A stretch of DNA of 64,000 nt from an archaeon SCG-AAA382B04. Its GTDB lineage: Archaea > Halobacteriota > Methanonatronarchaeia > Methanonatronarchaeales > Methanonatronarchaeaceae. Each line of letters begins with the position of its first letter. The first letter of the stretch is position 1. Positions 4,488 to 39,303 of the stretch are shown piece after piece. The translations under genes were made by a program, and so were the position numbers. Location of the stretch: positions 1 to 64,000 of the forward strand of contig PZKD01000059.1 of the NCBI GenBank assembly GCA_003034855.1, given 5' to 3'. Under the pieces are notes generated by a model, which searched no databases, was not told the origin of the DNA, and worked only from the letters and a program-made list of their open reading frames with translations.

Positions 4488-5512
4488 ACCTTAGGAATTG
4501 GAAAACCTTTGCATTAGTTGCAACGATAGCTATTATCTTTGTTGGATTAGGTGTAGTCACAACTAGAGGAATTGAGACTCAAGAGATTCAGGAAGAATTG
4601 GTGCTCGCTTATGAGAAAGAACTAATAAGTAGTTACACTTCTGAGGTGGAGCCCTCAATACTTTATGAAGGCACTGTTGTCTCTGATGATAGACTTTATT
4701 TGACGCTGACTAAGCAAATAGACGTTAACTTAACTTATTCTTTCTCAACCAACCGGGAATTTAGAATAAATAATAGTTATATAACCAGAACTGTGTTGGA
4801 GAACGCAGATGAGGAATATGGTTGGGAAAAAGATATCTCAAATAATATAACACAAACCGTCAGAGAAGAAGAACAAGATAATGTAACTACACTTGAATTT
4901 GATTTTAGCTACGATATTAGGGAAATTGAAGAGGTTGTCGAGGCTATAGAAGATGACACGGGATTAAACTACCCTAAGTATGTTATTAAGACAGAGGTAG
5001 GTATAAGGACATTGAATACAACCAAGGAAGGAAGTGATGTAATTATAGATGAAGCATTATCTGAGGGAGTTGTGATTAGTTGGGAACAATGGGGGTTTAA
5101 AGATGATAAAAGAGTTGGAATCATAGAAATCACGACATCGATGTCAAGAACCCAGGAAACTATAAATAAGGAAGTAATAGTTGAGAAAAAAAATAATAAG
5201 TTCCTGAAATCCGCGATGCCATTCACTTTCTTGGTTACATTGTTTACTGGAGCCTTTGCTACAAGATGGAGATATAAGAAGGATAAGGAGGTCATTAATG
5301 CGTTATCAGAGGCTCAGAGAATCTTAAGGGATAACCATGTATTGGAATCAAAAAACATGTTCAGCGGAAAAAAACAGGAATTAAGTAATTTTAGAGACCT
5401 AAAGAATTTATCAGATGATTATTACCTAGAAATATTCCATACAAAGGATCAAAACAAAGATATTTTTTATTGTATCGATCAAAATGTAGTTTATTTCTAC
5501 CAAACAAAATAA
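4484..5512 (+). CDS. DUF5305-like membrane protein
   Basis: A 342-residue protein with an N-terminal membrane segment (residues 9-27) and a large outside domain of about 210 residues. The outside domain is rich in charged residues and Asn-x-Ser/Thr sites. A second membrane segment (about 238-258, MPFTFLVTLFTGAF) and a cytoplasmic tail of about 85 residues follow. This topology and its position right after a SipW-type peptidase (ATGA overlap) fit the DUF5305 family, which in haloarchaea is repeatedly coded beside SipW/TasA-like genes. Its biochemical role is unknown; a scaffold or chaperone for export is a guess. The family call rests on topology and context. Confidence 0.6.
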   Translation: MNLRNWKTFALVATIAIIFVGLGVVTTRGIETQEIQEELVLAYEKELISSYTSEVEPSILYEGTVVSDDRLYLTLTKQIDVNLTYSFSTNREFRINNSYITRTVLENADEEYGWEKDISNNITQTVREEEQDNVTTLEFDFSYDIREIEEVVEAIEDDTGLNYPKYVIKTEVGIRTLNTTKEGSDVIIDEALSEGVVISWEQWGFKDDKRVGIIEITTSMSRTQETINKEVIVEKKNNKFLKSAMPFTFLVTLFTGAFATRWRYKKDKEVINALSEAQRILRDNHVLESKNMFSGKKQELSNFRDLKNLSDDYYLEIFHTKDQNKDIFYCIDQNVVYFYQTK

Positions 5513-6642: not shown

Positions 6643-7920
6643 ATGAATGAGTTGAAAAAAAAGGCATTAGAATACAATGAAGGCGGAAAGATTAGCGTAG
6701 AAAGCAAAGTTAGTTTGAAGAATCAAAGGGATTTAAGTCTTGCATATACTCCTGGAGTTGCTGAACCATCAAGGAAAATTGCAGAGGATGAGGAAAGGGT
6801 TTATGATTATACCTCTAAAGGAAACACAGTTGCTGTTGTGAGTGATGGATCAGCTGTGTTAGGGTTAGGTAATATTGGTGGAGAAGCTTCTCTTCCTGTT
6901 ATGGAGGGAAAGTCAGTTCTTTTTAAGCTTTTTGCGGGAATTGACGCATTTCCAATTTGCTTAGATAAACAAGAAGAGAGTCAAATAACTAAAATAACTC
7001 AATCAATAGAACCAAGTTTTGGGGGAATTAATTTAGAGGATATCACGGCTCCAAAATGCTTTAAGATAGAAGAAGAATTGAAAAAAACTATGAATATTCC
7101 GGTTTTCCATGATGACCAACATGGAACTGCAATAATTGTGTTAGGAGCTATTATTAACTCATTGAAATTATTAAATAAAAAAATTGGAGAAGTAAAAGCC
7201 ATAATAAGTGGAGCAGGAGCTTCAGGAATAGCAATAGCTAAAATATTAAAAAATGCAGGGATAGGAGAATTATTACTAGTTGATAGTGAAGGAATAATCT
7301 ATCCACAGAGGAAAAACAACATGAATCCATATAAAAAAGAAATAGCAAAAAAAACCAACCCAGAAAACATTCAAGGAGATTTAGAAACCGCAATGAAGGA
7401 TTCAGACATATTTATTGGTGTTTCAGCACCTAACATAGTCTCCAAAGATATGGTTAAAAAGATGAAAGAAGAATCAATTGTTTTTGCCATGGCAAATCCT
7501 GAACCTGAGATTTTTCCAGACAAAGTAAAAGAAGCAGGAGCTCAAATAGTTGGCTCCGGTCGATCAGACTACCCAAACCAAGTTAATAATGTTTTAGGGT
7601 TTCCAGGAATATTCAGAGGAGCACTAGACATCAGAGCCTCCGACATAAATGAAGAAATGAAAATTGCCGCTGCAGAAGCATTAGCAGAACTAGCAAGAAA
7701 AAAAATCCCAAAAGAAGTGAAAGAAGCCTATCCTGATGAGAATCTCAACGGCTTTAATTTTGACTATGTAATCCCCAAACCACTTGATGCTAGAGTAGTT
7801 CCAGAAGTTGCTAAGGCTGTTGCCGAAGCAGGAATAAAATCAGGAGTGGCTAGGAAGAAAGTTTCTCCTAACGAAGTGAAAGAAAAAACCAAAGAGGTAG
7901 TAAGTAAGATTAATTCGTAA
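6643..7920 (+). CDS. maeB: Malic enzyme, NAD(P)-dependent (maeB-type)
   Basis: A 425-residue decarboxylating malate dehydrogenase (L-malate + NAD(P)+ to pyruvate + CO2 + NAD(P)H). The malic-enzyme N domain shows the catalytic Tyr35 in YTPGVAEPS, Lys90 in VMEGKSVLF, and metal ligands in INLEDITAP (130-137) and FHDDQHGTA (156-163). A Rossmann fold with SGAGASGIAIAK (189-200) binds the cofactor. The length is that of the short bacterial/archaeal form without a phosphotransacetylase domain. The ATG at 6643 directly precedes the conserved start. In an archaeon using acetate or pyruvate it links C4 acids with pyruvate and supplies reducing power. It is followed 40 bp later by phosphoglycerate kinase, suggesting a central carbon metabolism pair. 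Confidence 0.95.
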   Translation: MNELKKKALEYNEGGKISVESKVSLKNQRDLSLAYTPGVAEPSRKIAEDEERVYDYTSKGNTVAVVSDGSAVLGLGNIGGEASLPVMEGKSVLFKLFAGIDAFPICLDKQEESQITKITQSIEPSFGGINLEDITAPKCFKIEEELKKTMNIPVFHDDQHGTAIIVLGAIINSLKLLNKKIGEVKAIISGAGASGIAIAKILKNAGIGELLLVDSEGIIYPQRKNNMNPYKKEIAKKTNPENIQGDLETAMKDSDIFIGVSAPNIVSKDMVKKMKEESIVFAMANPEPEIFPDKVKEAGAQIVGSGRSDYPNQVNNVLGFPGIFRGALDIRASDINEEMKIAAAEALAELARKKIPKEVKEAYPDENLNGFNFDYVIPKPLDARVVPEVAKAVAEAGIKSGVARKKVSPNEVKEKTKEVVSKINS

Positions 7921-7959: not shown

Positions 7960-9207
7960 TTGAATAGGGATAAATTGGGATCAGATAAAAATAATTATCT
8001 AACATTAGAAGATGTTGAGTTAAAAAATAAGAGAGTTCTCTTAAGGATAGATGTTAACTCACCAATGGACCCAGTTTCTAAAAGAATCCTAGATGACAGC
8101 AGGTTTAGGTCCCATGTAGGTACATTAAAGGCGCTTAGAAACTCAAAAACAGTTTTATTAGCACATCAAAGTAGACCAGGTAGAAAAGATTTTACAACAA
8201 TGGAAAAACACGCAAGCAAGCTTTCAGAAATCCTAAATAGAGAAGTAAAATATATTGATGACATTTTTGGAAAAAGAGCTCAAAAAGAGATCAATAAAAT
8301 GAATAATGGAGACATTATTTTTCTTGAGAATATTAGATTTTATTCCGAAGAAGTCTTAGAACGAGAAGATGAGAAACAGAAGGAAACCTTTTTAGTGAAA
8401 AATCTTTCTCCTTTATTTAATTATTACATAAATGATGCTTTTGCAGCTGCTCATAGACCCCATCCTTCAATAGTTGGGTTTCCTCAGACACTGCCTTCAC
8501 TAGCAGGTAAGTTGATGGAAAAGGAGATTAAAACACTAGAAAGCATGATTGAAGATAATGGCAAAACATATTTCGTTTTAGGTGGTGTAAAGGTAAAAGA
8601 TTCACTAAAGGTGATGGAAAATCTTTTAGAGAGAGATGAAGCTAGTAAAATATTTACAACGGGAGTTCTTTCAATATTGTTTTTGGATTCTAAGGGAATT
8701 GATATAGGAAAAAAGAACAAGGAATTTCTAGAAAACGAAATTGAATATCAAAAACAATCTAAACGAGCTATAGAATTGTTGGAAAAATACCAAGATAAGA
8801 TAGAGATACCTGAAGATGTTGCGATAAACAAAGAAGGTGAAAGAGAAGATGTTTCTGTAGAAAAAATACCAGATGAGTATAGAATTGAGGATATAGGAAT
8901 AGAAACAATAGTTAATTATTCAGAAAAACTAAAAGATGGTCAAAAAATTGTTATGAATGGTCCAGCAGGAGTTTTTGAAAAAGACAAGTTTTCTATTGGA
9001 ACAGAAGAACTTCAAAGAACAACTACAGAGAGTGAAGCCTATTCAATTATAGGTGGGGGACATATCTGTACCGCTGCAGAGGAATGTGGCCTCAAAAATT
9101 ACTTTGACCATGTAAGCACTGGAGGAGGAGCCTTAATGAACTTCTTTTCTTCAGATCAATTACCTGCTCTTCGATTATTAGAAGAATCTAAAGAGATGTA
9201 TAGTTGA
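7960..9207 (+). CDS. pgk: Phosphoglycerate kinase
   Basis: A 415-residue enzyme transferring phosphate between 1,3-bisphosphoglycerate and ADP in glycolysis or gluconeogenesis. Signature parts are visible: VLLRIDVNSPMD near residue 26, LAHQSRPGRKDF near 68, NDAFAAAHRPHPSIVGF near 153, GGVKVKDSLKVME near 208, and the nucleotide-binding MNGPAGVFEKDKFSIGTEEL and GGGHICTAAEECG near the C-terminus. The start is TTG at 7960 by my reading; there is no ATG upstream of the conserved core. It lies 40 bp after malic enzyme in the same direction and ends 11 bp before tRNA-Thr. The start codon is the only uncertain point. Confidence 0.95.
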   Translation: MNRDKLGSDKNNYLTLEDVELKNKRVLLRIDVNSPMDPVSKRILDDSRFRSHVGTLKALRNSKTVLLAHQSRPGRKDFTTMEKHASKLSEILNREVKYIDDIFGKRAQKEINKMNNGDIIFLENIRFYSEEVLEREDEKQKETFLVKNLSPLFNYYINDAFAAAHRPHPSIVGFPQTLPSLAGKLMEKEIKTLESMIEDNGKTYFVLGGVKVKDSLKVMENLLERDEASKIFTTGVLSILFLDSKGIDIGKKNKEFLENEIEYQKQSKRAIELLEKYQDKIEIPEDVAINKEGEREDVSVEKIPDEYRIEDIGIETIVNYSEKLKDGQKIVMNGPAGVFEKDKFSIGTEELQRTTTESEAYSIIGGGHICTAAEECGLKNYFDHVSTGGGALMNFFSSDQLPALRLLEESKEMYS

Positions 9208-9573: not shown

Positions 9574-10758
9574 ATGCCAATAAAGAATTTTAAAAAAGAC
9601 CATGAAAATGAAATCCAGAACATAAAAACCTCCAACGAAATAATTGAAGAAAACAAAAAAACTCTTAAAAAATTTTATAGAGATCTAAAAGTCAAAGACT
9701 ACTCAGATTCCAGGATCCTCAAATTAATAAATTACACCAAACTTCTAGCAAAACAAATAAACAAACCCTTTCAGGAAACCACTAAAGAAGATATTAAAGA
9801 TTTAGTGGCCTGGATCAATCAGAGAAACTTAGCTGATTCAACAAAAAGAACCTATAAAGTAATTTTAAAAGTCTTTTATAAATGGCTAAATGATGGCTCC
9901 CATCCAGAAAAAGTTGAATGGATCAAAACATCAACCAGCAAAAACAACAAACTACCAAAAGAACTCCTCAGAGAAAAAGACATAAAAAAACTATTATCTG
10001 GAGCTGAAAACCCTAGAACCAAAGCCTTAATCTCTTTATTATGGGAAACTGGAGCTAGAATAGGAGAATTAATTGATCTAAAAATCGGAGATATAGAAGA
10101 TCATGAGCATGGGAAACAAATAATTATTGATGGAAAAACTGGCCAAAGAAGAATCCCCCTAATAGAATCTGTGCCTCATTTAAGGAATTGGCTCAATCTC
10201 CATCCAGAGCCAGAGCCAGAAAACCCAATATGGGTAAATGTTGGAAACACCAGGCATGGAAAAAAATCCTCATACAGAAATTTAAGAAAAAGCCTAGAAA
10301 CAGCTAAAAAGAGAGCTAAATTAGAGGAAAAACCAGTTAATCCTCATCACTTCAGGCACTCCAGAGCCACTTACTTAGCAAACAAATTTACTGAAGCTCA
10401 GATGTGCCAATTCTTTGGATGGGTCCAAGGAAGTGATATGCCATCAAAATACATTCACTTATCTGGAAGAGATATTGATGAGGCCTATGCTCAATTACAT
10501 GGATTAGAAGATGAAAACAAAAAAGAAAGCAATCTCACTCCTAAAACATGTCCTAGATGTAAAAACCAAAACCCCCATGACGCCAATTTATGTAGTTACT
10601 GTGGCCAAGCATTGAGCCATGAAGAATTTAGGAAATTTGAAAAAGCTAAAGAAGATCAAGAAGAGATTGATGTAGATAAACAAAAATTAATTAGCTTAAT
10701 CCAGGACTATGAAGAGAATGGAAAAATCAGTAAGGAATTACTAGAAAAATTACTCTAA
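9574..10758 (+). CDS. Tyrosine recombinase (integrase) with C-terminal zinc ribbon
   Basis: A 394-residue site-specific recombinase, the likely integrase of the tRNA-Thr island. A SAM-like core-binding domain covers about residues 25-110. The catalytic domain shows R162 (TGARIGEL), K188 (DGKTGQRR), H258 and R261 (NPHHFRHSR), a Trp in the second His position (W283, FFGWVQGSDMP), and the nucleophile Y293 (SKYIHL). A zinc ribbon follows with C326-x2-C329 and C340-x2-C343, then a charged helical tail. This recombinase plus ribbon architecture is common in halophilic archaea. The Trp for His exchange is found in active members of this family. Confidence 0.9.
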   Translation: MPIKNFKKDHENEIQNIKTSNEIIEENKKTLKKFYRDLKVKDYSDSRILKLINYTKLLAKQINKPFQETTKEDIKDLVAWINQRNLADSTKRTYKVILKVFYKWLNDGSHPEKVEWIKTSTSKNNKLPKELLREKDIKKLLSGAENPRTKALISLLWETGARIGELIDLKIGDIEDHEHGKQIIIDGKTGQRRIPLIESVPHLRNWLNLHPEPEPENPIWVNVGNTRHGKKSSYRNLRKSLETAKKRAKLEEKPVNPHHFRHSRATYLANKFTEAQMCQFFGWVQGSDMPSKYIHLSGRDIDEAYAQLHGLEDENKKESNLTPKTCPRCKNQNPHDANLCSYCGQALSHEEFRKFEKAKEDQEEIDVDKQKLISLIQDYEENGKISKELLEKLL

Positions 10759-10859
10759 AAAAGTGTTTTTTAATGCTTTTCTAAAAAAAATAATTTTCTA
10801 TAGGGGGAATCAACCCCCATATATTTTATTAATAAGGGAACTATGGAGCCGAGAATCAC

Positions 10860-11078
10860 CTAATTATTATTAAAGCGATTCTGGGTACTGCCAATTACAT
10901 TTTCTTTATTGGATTCTTGTTTCTTCTCAATGACTTCAATTCTTTTTTTTATCTCCTCAATATTTTCCTTAATTATTTCATTTATATAATGTTGTAAAGC
11001 TATGCTTCTCAATTTATCATCTGAGATCTCAGCAACAACCTTTTCTCCACAATTTGGGCATTTCATATTGGTTTTCAT
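10860..11078 (-). CDS. Small zinc-ribbon/coiled-coil protein
   Basis: A 72-residue protein with a single CPNCG knuckle at residues 7-11 and a long helical part with heptad-like spacing (EIIKENIEEIKKRIEVIEKK). Only one pair of cysteines is present, so a zinc site would need a dimer. I cannot assign a family. It lies convergent with the integrase, 100 bp after its stop, and is followed by a short repeat-free spacer and a pilin remnant. It may belong to the island's own functions. Confidence 0.5.
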   Translation of the reverse strand: MKTNMKCPNCGEKVVAEISDDKLRSIALQHYINEIIKENIEEIKKRIEVIEKKQESNKENVIGSTQNRFNNN

Positions 11079-27862: not shown

Positions 27863-27931
27863 ATGCCCATTAAGACCCTTATTTCAAAAGTTATTAGTAT
27901 TAATAAAATTAATAATATTATTAGGATAAAG

Positions 27932-28162
27932 ATGACTGAAAGAGTTGTAACATCCATAAATATAGACGAACCTACACTTAGAAAAGCCAAATCCTTGGGC
28001 CTAAACATTAGTAAAGTAACAGAAAACGCATTAAAAATCGCTGTCTCCAATTTAGAGAATACATACAAAGATATAGATAAAGAAAAACACTTTAAGAACA
28101 GAGTGCGGGGGAGGGGATTCGAACCCCTGGACCCCTACGGGACAGCGCCCTCAAGGCCCTAA
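27932..28162 (+). pseudogene. Orphan int(N): RHH N-half of a second SSV-type integrase
   Basis: A 76-residue frame from ATG 27932 (ribosome binding site AGGATAAAG). It has the same ribbon-helix-helix start as the int(N) at 38998: VVTSINIDEPTLRKAKSLGL then NISKVTENALKIAVSNLEN. It runs into the tRNA-Leu repeat, but in a different frame (RGRGFEPLDPYGTAPSRP) from the neighbouring int(C), and stops just past it. It therefore belonged to another element using the same tRNA. An upstream ATG at 27863 would add 23 unsupported residues. It is a leftover of an older or tandem integration; it could still be expressed as a small DNA-binding protein. Confidence 0.65.
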
Positions 28163-29003
28163 AACAGCTAGAATCGAAAATAAAGTTTTTGAATTTAGTG
28201 AGAGACACATTAATGATTTTTTGGATCGGTTAAGAGCGGCTGACCGTTCAGAGATGCGAATAAATGCACTCAAAAGAACAATCACAAAATACGCAAAACA
28301 CGTAAACTTCAAAGCCAGCTTAAATAAGACAATCGATTACATAAACCAGCGACGCCAAGAAGTTAGTAACAGAACACTCGCCGACAATATACAAATGATA
28401 AAACAATTCCTAAACGAATACAACGTAAACTGGACTGAAAAAATCAATAAACCAAACGTTGGACGCAAAAGGCCAAAAAGAATTGACAAAAAAGACGTTA
28501 ATGGATTAATTGATCAATTAGAGGATGTAGATATTGATTATAAGTATTTTTATCGAGCCAAAACCGCAGTAGTATTATCCGCCGTATCAGGAATGCGTCC
28601 CTGGGAAATATATCGCCTACAATGGAACGAATTAAACGTGGACGAAAGAATAGTTGAGTTACCTGCTGAAAAAACGAAAACCAAACACGAGAGAATCGTC
28701 GTATTTAATGAGGAAGCACAAAACCACTTAACTAAACTAATGGATTTGTTTGAGGAGCAACCATTTAGCACCAAAACCATCTATTGCCTAACAAAAAAGA
28801 TGAAAAATAAACCGGATGTTAAGTTAAAGCATTGTCGTAAATATTTTAGCCAACAATGGGACCGAGAAGGCCTACCAACATCAATAAAAGAGATGTTGTT
28901 AGGTCATTTCGGAAACGTAGACTTAAGAAACTATGATCGACAAAGTGCCGAGGATCTGAAGCAAATATACGATAGAGCAGAGTTCAAACTAAACCATAAT
29001 TAA
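28155..29003 (+). CDS. int(C): catalytic half of SSV-type integrase
   Basis: The frame is open from the tRNA repeat (GGGDSNPWTPTGQRPQ read through the repeat) and continues GPKTARIENKVFEFSERHIN to the end, about 280 residues after the junction. The core-binding domain is at about 30-110. The catalytic residues are R in SGMRPWEIYRL, K in PAEKTKTKHE, the HCRKYF box, LLGHFGNVD and the Tyr in LRNYDR, all present. No start codon lies in the left part of the element; the first in-frame option is TTG at 28221. It may thus be silent until excision rejoins it with int(N) at 38998. It integrates and probably excises the element at tRNA-Leu. Confidence 0.88.
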   Translation, partial: GPKTARIENKVFEFSERHINDFLDRLRAADRSEMRINALKRTITKYAKHVNFKASLNKTIDYINQRRQEVSNRTLADNIQMIKQFLNEYNVNWTEKINKPNVGRKRPKRIDKKDVNGLIDQLEDVDIDYKYFYRAKTAVVLSAVSGMRPWEIYRLQWNELNVDERIVELPAEKTKTKHERIVVFNEEAQNHLTKLMDLFEEQPFSTKTIYCLTKKMKNKPDVKLKHCRKYFSQQWDREGLPTSIKEMLLGHFGNVDLRNYDRQSAEDLKQIYDRAEFKLNHN

Positions 29004-36160: not shown

Positions 36161-36370
36161 AACCATTAAACCCAATTATTTCAAAAATAAACCCATTTAA
36201 TATTTTTTTAAAAAAATTAAAAAAATTTAAACAACTACATAACTACGGATTATTTAAAAATAAGAAAAAAGAAATCAAAAAAATAAAAAATATAAAAATT
36301 TTAAATTTTGTTTTTCATATATTATTTTCCAAAAATATGTGTAGTTTTGTAGTTATTTTTTTCTTCACCC
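36161..36370. other. AT-rich spacer between convergent genes
   Basis: 210 bp of poly-A and poly-T rich DNA between the transglutaminase gene and the helicase gene, which converge here. T-runs on both strands can end transcription from either side. Confidence 0.35.
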
Positions 36371-37789
36371 TCAATCTGGTGTTACTAACCTAGGATCTTC
36401 ATTTTCACCAACTATCCTAATACCTTCCCAAACACGCACACTCTCACCTGCCCTAGTGGTTGGGTTACTACCACTTGGATTCAAATAAGCATCATTCGCA
36501 ATTCTCTGACCCAATTTCCTCTTTGTCTCAATAGGCAAATTTTTATCATCGCAGAATTCCTCATATTTCTCCCACAACTCCTCATTAGTTACCTCACTTG
36601 ATTTATCATTAGCAATTTTCTGACTAATGAATTTATCCACACTATTAGACCTGCTATACCAAAAATTCTTAACCTGCCTAGGCTCCATCTCATTCAACAA
36701 CTCTTTCTTTTCTCTTGCCTCCTGCAAACATTTGATTGCTACATTAAGGATGCCTTCAAGTTCCTCATCAGCAGTTAATTCCTCAATAAGATCCTCTCTC
36801 TCAACTCTTTCATCACGAGGTATCCTCTTAAACCTATAAATCGGATGAATACGTCTCCAAAACCCAGGACTCGGATCTTTTACTTCAGGAAATTTGTTAC
36901 CAGCAAAAATCATTGTCGCCTTGTTCTCAAAAGAAAATTTTTTCTCGTGCTTAGGGTTAGCCATCAAAGTATCACCACCAACGATTTGCTGAAACTTATC
37001 GGTTCCACGTATCTTAGAATCAGAAACATCTCCATCAATGTTTGCAAGTTTCTCATATAAAGCAGCTAACGCATAGTTATCTTGACTCAAATCCTTTAAT
37101 CCAAGATTCGAAACATTGCTTTTACCAATTAAATTCTTTATAACCCTCAGTAATACAGTTTTTCCGGAATCTGGAGGACCATACAAAAAATATCCCTTCT
37201 TAAATAAGCTGCTTCCTCGATACAATGTATCCCCAATCATCTCAAATATCTGTTGAATCATTTGAAGGTCATTGCCAGTAATCTCCCTCAAAAAAGAAAT
37301 AAACTTCTTCGGTTCACCAGATTCAGGATTATAATCTGTCTTTACCTTATTTATCGCAACTAAATCAGGACTAAAGTCAATAAACTCATCATTGTGAAGA
37401 TCATAGATCCCATTATTCAGAAACAACAAACGGGATGGTGCAGTCTTTTCTTCAAAATCTTTCTTTTTAACGCCAATCAAAACATCTAGTTTATCAATGA
37501 CTAAGTTCTTCTTATACTGGCTAATGTTCTCCGCCTTCTCATAGATCTTTTCTTTGAGGAAATGGTCAGTTCCTTCGTGCTTATATATTCCGTTCTCATA
37601 ATGAAAACGCCTCTTGTCTTCTTTTATTTTAATCAAATAGTTTTCTTTAGCTATTTGTTTAGCTAACTCCATAGATATAACTTTGCCTTTTTCATTCCTG
37701 AATCCATTTTTTGATTGGGAAACATTTTTATTCTTCAAATTTTTATTTTCCTTTGGAGGGTTTTTTCCCTCCTCACTTTCCTTATTCAT
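36371..37789 (-). CDS. SF3/D5-like replicative helicase
   Basis: A 472-residue protein. I start it at the ATG at 37789, which has a strong ribosome binding site (GAGGTG, six bases upstream). A D5_N-like region (about 60-165) precedes the helicase core: Walker A GPPDSGKT near 208, Walker B-type LANIDGDVSDS near 250, and the SF3 motif C region MIFAGNKFPEVKD near 295. A winged-helix C-terminal part follows. Proteins of this kind start and drive replication of plasmids and viruses (P4/poxvirus D5 type). The primase domain is absent, so a host primase is needed. It is the key replication gene of the element, and the GC-rich region upstream may be its origin or leader. Confidence 0.88.
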   Translation of the reverse strand: MNKESEEGKNPPKENKNLKNKNVSQSKNGFRNEKGKVISMELAKQIAKENYLIKIKEDKRRFHYENGIYKHEGTDHFLKEKIYEKAENISQYKKNLVIDKLDVLIGVKKKDFEEKTAPSRLLFLNNGIYDLHNDEFIDFSPDLVAINKVKTDYNPESGEPKKFISFLREITGNDLQMIQQIFEMIGDTLYRGSSLFKKGYFLYGPPDSGKTVLLRVIKNLIGKSNVSNLGLKDLSQDNYALAALYEKLANIDGDVSDSKIRGTDKFQQIVGGDTLMANPKHEKKFSFENKATMIFAGNKFPEVKDPSPGFWRRIHPIYRFKRIPRDERVEREDLIEELTADEELEGILNVAIKCLQEAREKKELLNEMEPRQVKNFWYSRSNSVDKFISQKIANDKSSEVTNEELWEKYEEFCDDKNLPIETKRKLGQRIANDAYLNPSGSNPTTRAGESVRVWEGIRIVGENEDPRLVTPD

Positions 37790-37823
37790 AATTTTCACCT
37801 CATTTTGTTCATAACCACTAGGC

Positions 37824-38078
37824 TACGGATCTTGGAACCCTGGGCACGCCCCATACCACATACCATCCGGAGTTACGGGCGAATCCTTGCTTGCTATGGA
37901 GCCCTTGATCACCTAACATGTCCGGGCATTCAATAGTTTAGGCAGCCCCTAACACCCAATAGGCAAGAGCAGCACAATCAATCAACACACTGGAACACCT
38001 AAATAACTAGTATACCCAAAACAATAGTATGGGCCTAGGTCCCCAAGTATGGAGACCTTGGGCACTCCAAGATCCGTA
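37824..38078 (-). ncRNA. Candidate structured RNA, leader or origin upstream of the helicase
   Basis: A 255-bp stretch with clearly higher GC than its surroundings. Its ends pair perfectly: 37824-37836 (TACGGATCTTGGA) and 38066-38078 (TCCAAGATCCGTA). Inside there is a further stem (CCCAAG/CTTGGG around 38044-38062) and repeated GGGCA strings. On the minus strand a TATA-like sequence lies about 27 bases upstream of 38078, the normal archaeal distance, so a transcript would begin at the outer stem. It ends 35 bp before the helicase start. It is not recognisable as SRP RNA or RNase P RNA. RNA versus DNA origin cannot be decided here. Confidence 0.45.
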
Positions 38079-38097
38079 ACATGGGGATTATGAACTC

Positions 38098-38112
38098 TTA
38101 TATACTATATAG
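38098..38112 (-). promoter_or_regulatory. TATA box upstream of the GC-rich region
   Basis: CTATATAGTATATAA on the minus strand, centred about 27 bases before the first base of the outer stem at 38078. Position and composition match an archaeal TATA element driving transcription toward the helicase gene. A plus-strand use is also possible because the sequence is nearly symmetrical. Confidence 0.5.
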
Positions 38113-38245
38113 CCCATACAAATATGGTTTTTTAAGTATAAAGGTTTTAGGTTTTCAATTTCAATCTAAAAAAGAACCCATGAACCAAACTAACTAACTT
38201 CAATAAAAATCATCGAACACTACATAGATCACCAAAAAAAAATTA

Positions 38246-38428
38246 TCAATCCTTTAGCTGTGGTTTTATCCTCAAATCACCACTATCATCTTCCTCAATC
38301 CGAAGAACATCCCGTTTACTCAATCCCTTCTCCTTGATCCAATTCTCCGGAATCGCAACCAAAAAATAATTGACATCATCTCTAGGCCTCTGCAATTTCC
38401 TCAAACCCAAAATCTTACGATTAGGCAT
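38246..38428 (-). CDS. AbrB/MazE-like swapped-hairpin regulator
   Basis: A 60-residue protein. LVAIPENWIKEKGLSKRDVL and RIEEDDSGDLRIKP form the beta-hairpin/helix/beta pattern of the SpoVT-AbrB fold, here preceded by RKLQRPRDDVNYF. Such proteins bind DNA as dimers and control plasmid genes or act as antitoxins. An excellent ribosome binding site (GGGAGGTGATTTAATATG) precedes the start. It lies upstream of the GC-rich region and the helicase gene on the same strand, so it is well placed to control replication. No toxin gene follows. Confidence 0.7.
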   Translation of the reverse strand: MPNRKILGLRKLQRPRDDVNYFLVAIPENWIKEKGLSKRDVLRIEEDDSGDLRIKPQLKD

Positions 38429-38976: not shown

Positions 38977-38997
38977 ATGATAAAAGAGCTTAGAGAT

Positions 38998-39303
<306 letters not shown>

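Follow-up and report, generated by a model that had tools for sequence, protein, structure and literature searches.

The window, that is, the whole 64-kb stretch of DNA analysed here, belongs to an archaeal genome of 1.42 Mb assembled in 132 contigs, whose gene content and gene neighbours point to the Methanonatronarchaeia, and carries an 11,047-bp integrative element of the SSV type inserted in a tRNA-Leu gene. The element is bounded on the left by attL (28104–28154), a 51-bp copy of the 3' part of the tRNA-Leu gene, and on the right by attR (39151–39201), the same 51 bp lying inside the tRNA-Leu(GAG) gene (39150–39236). Its integrase is split by integration into an SSV-type N-terminal part (38977–39201, plus strand) and a C-terminal catalytic part that matches Phage_integrase (28155–29003, plus strand) and that, in the excised circle, continues the reading frame of the N-terminal part. 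When the flanks are joined as they would be in the circle, one open frame runs from a CcdA-like start at 38977 to the end of the recombinase at 29003. The att site thus lies inside the integrase gene and the frame is restored in the circle; an integrase gene that is interrupted on insertion into a tRNA gene and becomes whole again in the circle is the signature of SSV-type elements (PMC8371274).

A second integrase N-terminal fragment lies at 27863–28162, directly left of attL, and is apparently the remnant of another element that used the same site. Beyond the window, on contig C56 (L366), the segment 39017–39235, which comprises the N-terminal end of the integrase and the tRNA-Leu gene, is copied at 10741–10959 and at 7477–7575. 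One copy sits at a tRNA-Leu(UAA) gene, with the other, a weaker match, at a distance of 3 kb; both would be additional insertions, or what is left of them, by an integrase of this type.

The cargo of the element consists of a D5/SF3 helicase, a DNA methyltransferase and several genes of no assigned function. The helicase gene (36371–37789, minus strand) begins with the ATG at 37789 and encodes 472 amino acids that match DUF5906, D5_N and Pox_D5; no primase domain was matched in the protein. Used as a single query against viral and genome contigs the helicase found no relative, and with an alignment as query 80 distant loci were found in each. Its first codons form a perfect 6-bp hairpin, GGAGGG/CCCTCC, with a loop of six bases (37755–37772). 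Upstream, on the same strand, a gene at 38246–38428 encodes a small DNA-binding protein of 60 amino acids which resembles AbrB/MazE, though the match is weak and falls below the Pfam cut-off.

The GC-rich region upstream of the helicase gene

Between these two genes lies a GC-rich noncoding region (37824–38078), for which we propose the role of a structured leader or RNA of the minus strand. Its GC content is 0.50, against 0.33 for the host element, and it is the richest 255-bp stretch in the 64 kb, in which the top window of this length, at 37821, reaches 0.506. The region is closed by perfect 13-bp arms, TACGGATCTTGGA (37824–37836) and TCCAAGATCCGTA (38066–38078), and it holds an internal 9-bp hairpin (38037–38058, minus strand), AGGTCTCCA/TGGGGACCT, in which 38058–38050 pairs with 38045–38037 at a pair probability of ~0.98. 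A preliminary description of this DNA had named the island with its perfect outer stem, an internal stem and a TATA box before the outer stem, all of which are present, the box being a TATA-like TATATAAG at 38104–38097, 26 nt upstream. It had also placed the region 35 bp before the ribosome binding site of the helicase, and here the figure has to be changed: the end of the stem is 22 nt from the ribosome binding site, and ~35 nt is its distance to the ATG. The longest stop-to-stop frame wholly within the region has ~33 codons, longer frames only overlapping it, and this survey rules out a coding sequence.

The pairing of the outer stem is perfect over 13 bp as described, but its extent had been understated, since it continues outward into an imperfect inverted repeat of 30 nt (25/30 identical), the left and right arms of which lie at 37807–37836 and 38066–38095. 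The longer repeat scores 19.1, a value that none of 1500 simulated versions of this intergenic region reaches, the highest being 16.8, and it is the best inverted repeat in 32 kb; a 13-bp inverted repeat by itself is not rare in 64 kb. The arms are bipartite, with a perfect outer 8 bp and a perfect inner 13 bp.

Signals for transcription on the minus strand are placed around the right arm. A T9 tract directly after the AbrB-like gene (38234–38242) is a candidate archaeal terminator. The TATA-like box TATATAAG (38097–38104) predicts a start at ~38073–38078, so that the outer part of the right arm would lie upstream of this nearest start, and an alternative TATA-like box, TTTATA (38137–38142), preceded by AAACC, predicts a start at ~38113, which would place the whole 30-nt arm within the RNA. 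No T tract and no terminator were found between the region and the helicase gene, and the simplest transcript would therefore have a leader of ~290–325 nt. The helicase ribosome binding site, GAGGTGA (37795–37801, minus strand), is accessible in the predicted fold of this leader, being largely unpaired.

The arms might instead act as DNA, bound by a regulator, for instance the AbrB-like protein, that would loop the DNA over the helicase promoter, the interior having no function. They do flank the start region, coming within 1 bp of the TATA box (38095 versus 38097), and the repeat continues upstream of the nearer predicted start. Against this, 229 bp is a long separation for such a pair of sites, no further copy was found in the genome, the regulator's own promoter included, and we regard the explanation as quite improbable.

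Predicted folding and the search for relatives

On the minus, helicase-sense strand the whole region folds with a z of -4.0 to -4.3 relative to shuffled sequence, the largest excess stability among 314 windows in 20 kb, and on the plus strand the value is -1.9 to -2.9, a strand difference which is mostly compositional. When the region is split, the interior alone (38065–37837) is no better than shuffles, with z values of -1.0 (minus strand) and +0.3 (plus strand), and nearly all of the excess stability comes from the outer stem and the one 9-bp hairpin; a z of about -4 is for this reason weaker support for an RNA than it would appear. RNAs of the same genome, taken as controls on their sense strands (the RNase P and SRP RNA genes are both on the minus strand of their loci), give z values of -2.3 for RNase P RNA, -7.6 for SRP RNA and -1.5 for tRNA-Leu. 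As the genome's own RNase P RNA reaches just -2.3, a modest z is compatible with a genuine RNA. The GC content of the RNase P RNA is 0.46 and that of the SRP RNA 0.57, compared with 0.50 for the region.

The region matches no family among the Rfam covariance models, relaxed thresholds included, which bears out the earlier remark that it matches no familiar class of RNA. It is neither the SRP RNA nor the RNase P RNA, the genome's copies of which sit on other contigs. A single-sequence covariance model of the region, run on the class, on 148 genomes of the phylum and on 43 loci, finds itself alone, and BLAST against phages and plasmids returned nothing. No relative was found in its own genome, in the class or in the 148 phylum genomes, at the level of sequence or of sequence plus structure; an exact 14-base pattern of the stem has at least 120 matches in viral contigs and is unspecific. 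The GC-rich feature, though genuine and out of the ordinary for an element of this type, is an orphan.

Countertranscript RNAs control synthesis from rep messages in bacteria, and the preliminary description had suggested an antisense RNA of this kind, governing copy number. A plus-strand antisense RNA over the 5' part of the region would in this case control the synthesis of the helicase. The plus strand at 38020–38133 folds with a z of -3.3 and ends in a 5-bp hairpin followed by T6 (38114–38133, plus strand), a weak hint of an antisense RNA end. The terminator scan gave no terminator-like site, leaving 38114–38133 unscored, the small hairpin is no better than shuffles (z -0.5) and the plus strand has no convincing promoter, and we hold an antisense RNA to be improbable.

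A candidate origin downstream of the helicase gene

On the far side of the helicase gene, 16 bp past its stop, we find inverted iterons (36229–36358) in which AACTAC occurs twice with a period of 8 and then twice in inverted orientation, on either side of an AT-rich loop of 94 bp. The test that defines such sites asks for a 6-mer present twice with a period of 7–12, then its complement twice with the same period, within 300 bp. It returns this site alone in the 64-kb window and none in 20 simulated windows. Applied to pRN1, the test likewise returns a single site, TGTCCA with a period of 9, which falls inside the 100-bp stem-loop (5084–5183) downstream of orf904. Two studies have shown that this stem-loop is needed for replication (PMC4234260, PMC3869888).

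Iteron sites lie at most 600 bp from the helicase gene in 36 of 184 distinct relatives, 25 of them downstream and 11 upstream, compared with 0 in simulated or shuffled sequence, and their rate elsewhere in the same helicase loci is far lower. The first 40 loci served in designing the test and are not independent of it, while 160 later loci and pRN1 are. Iteron arrays, inverted and built of 8–9-bp direct repeats, are present at L159, L161, L163, L164, L168, L178, L184, L287–L347 and others. The paralogous element on contig C45 (L030) has tandem repeat arrays of 12–44 bp downstream of its helicase gene (8538–8617 and 10198–10869), and L188 (G035) and L179 (G289) have very long inverted repeats, with arms of 48 and 86 nt, directly downstream of theirs.

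The site itself, together with pRN1 and the pattern among the relatives, makes it most likely, as judged from sequence, that the origin of the element is downstream of the helicase gene, at the candidate site 36229–36358. The preliminary description had considered the GC-rich region as the origin, and its inverted repeat could be imagined as the origin of the excised circle, extruded as a cruciform that the SF3 helicase recognises. The region does adjoin the helicase gene, the pRN1 origin is a 100-bp stem-loop (PMC4234260, PMC3869888), and the relatives L163 and L164 have inverted iterons upstream of the helicase. The proposal nevertheless fits poorly with the evidence above: the only iteron site in 64 kb lies elsewhere, in AT-rich DNA, the test picks out just the proven origin in pRN1, and the sites recur near related helicases. 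The segment 37807–38095 holds no paired 8–9-bp direct repeats around a loop; its loop is GC-rich and its arms are free of iterons. An origin at the GC-rich region is accordingly disfavoured, and we think it very unlikely.

Interpretation and comparison with known systems

The best single reading of the GC-rich region, which we put somewhat short of an even chance, is that it is a structured 5' leader, or a processed RNA, of the minus-strand helicase message. What favours this reading is the place of the region between the T9 tract and TATA boxes on one side and the helicase ribosome binding site on the other, its GC content near that of the genome's RNase P and SRP RNAs, and its z on the minus strand. 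The leader RNA of the preliminary description is thus compatible with the T9 tract, the TATA boxes, the run without a terminator and the base composition, while an interior that folds as shuffled sequence does not speak for it. Also to its disadvantage, 17 bp of the inverted repeat would fall upstream of transcription starting from the nearer TATA box, which is needless for an RNA stem, and no homolog was found that could supply covariation.

The main rival, possible though less probable, is that the region is an inserted mobile element, a MITE or the remnant of an insertion sequence, of ~289 bp with a 30-nt terminal inverted repeat, whose outer 8 bp would be the cleavage end and whose inner 13 bp the transposase site, and which would have parted the AbrB-like gene from the helicase gene. 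Several observations agree with an insert: an abrupt GC island bordered on each side by inverted repeats (30 nt, 25/30), the bipartite conservation within the arms, and an interior without significant structure. The second most GC-rich window in the 64 kb is the gene of an IS4/5-type transposase, which suggests that mobile DNA is GC-richer here. The arrangement of related loci also argues for an insert and tells against a leader, given that pRN1 has no such gap, its copy-control and replication genes overlapping, and that the helicase gene of the nearest helicase relative (L005), like that of the paralogous C45 element of the same genome, is overlapped by an upstream ORF. The window is one of just 24 loci, out of 192, with a gap of at least 200 bp upstream of the helicase, and a comparable GC excess is seen in none of the rest. 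On the opposite side, the region is present as a single copy, its ends being absent elsewhere in the genome and from 393 other genomes of the phylum, and there is no target-site duplication at either pair of candidate boundaries (37806/38096 and 37823/38079). A repeated parent element could, however, be missing, as the assembly consists of 132 contigs.

If the region is a leader, transcription of the AbrB-like gene would end at the T9 tract and a new minus-strand transcript would begin from one of the two TATA boxes (at ~38076 or ~38113). Its first ~255 nt would form a compact domain with a closing stem of 13–15 bp, after which come the ribosome binding site and the helicase. This domain may set the level of the helicase and hence the copy number of the excised circle, and would do so by affecting the stability or processing of the RNA or with an antisense partner; hiding of the ribosome binding site, in the form of simple sequestration, is argued against by the fact that the site is mostly unpaired in the predicted fold. 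The fullest form of the proposal, a new class of large structured archaeal RNA in the helicase leader of an SSV-type element which controls replication of the excised circle, with a pRN1-like origin at the gene's other end, we consider doubtful.

In bacterial plasmids the control of replication at the level of RNA is well documented; for archaeal elements, to our knowledge, it has hardly been described. A structured helicase leader, if true, would be a concrete archaeal case to examine. Inverted 8–9-bp iterons beside SF3 helicase genes, for their part, recur in archaeal and bacterial elements, the pRN1 origin among them, and this signature can point to candidate origins of this type of replicon from sequence.

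Structured leaders of a few hundred nucleotides precede the replication gene in the rep messages of bacterial plasmids of the pT181, pIP501 and ColE2 types. The locus described here shares with them a folded leader, in this case a predicted one, ahead of a replication gene; it differs in being archaeal, in having no sequence relation to them and in lacking a demonstrated antisense gene or attenuator. With archaeal MITEs and insertion-sequence remnants the region has in common its length, terminal inverted repeats, foreign base composition and intergenic position, but it is a single copy with no target-site duplication and no transposase with matching ends was found. In the pRN1 family of Sulfolobus, too, a small regulator gene precedes an SF3 helicase gene, with inverted iterons just downstream of the latter; pRN1 differs in having neither a gap nor a GC-rich region between the two genes and in the primase domain of its replication protein, and its stem-loop origin does not correspond to the GC-rich region. 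The element as a whole has the same split and restored integrase as the SSV-type (suicidal) integrative elements of archaea (PMC8371274), to which it adds the proposed helicase leader region and an integrase with a CcdA-like N-terminal part.
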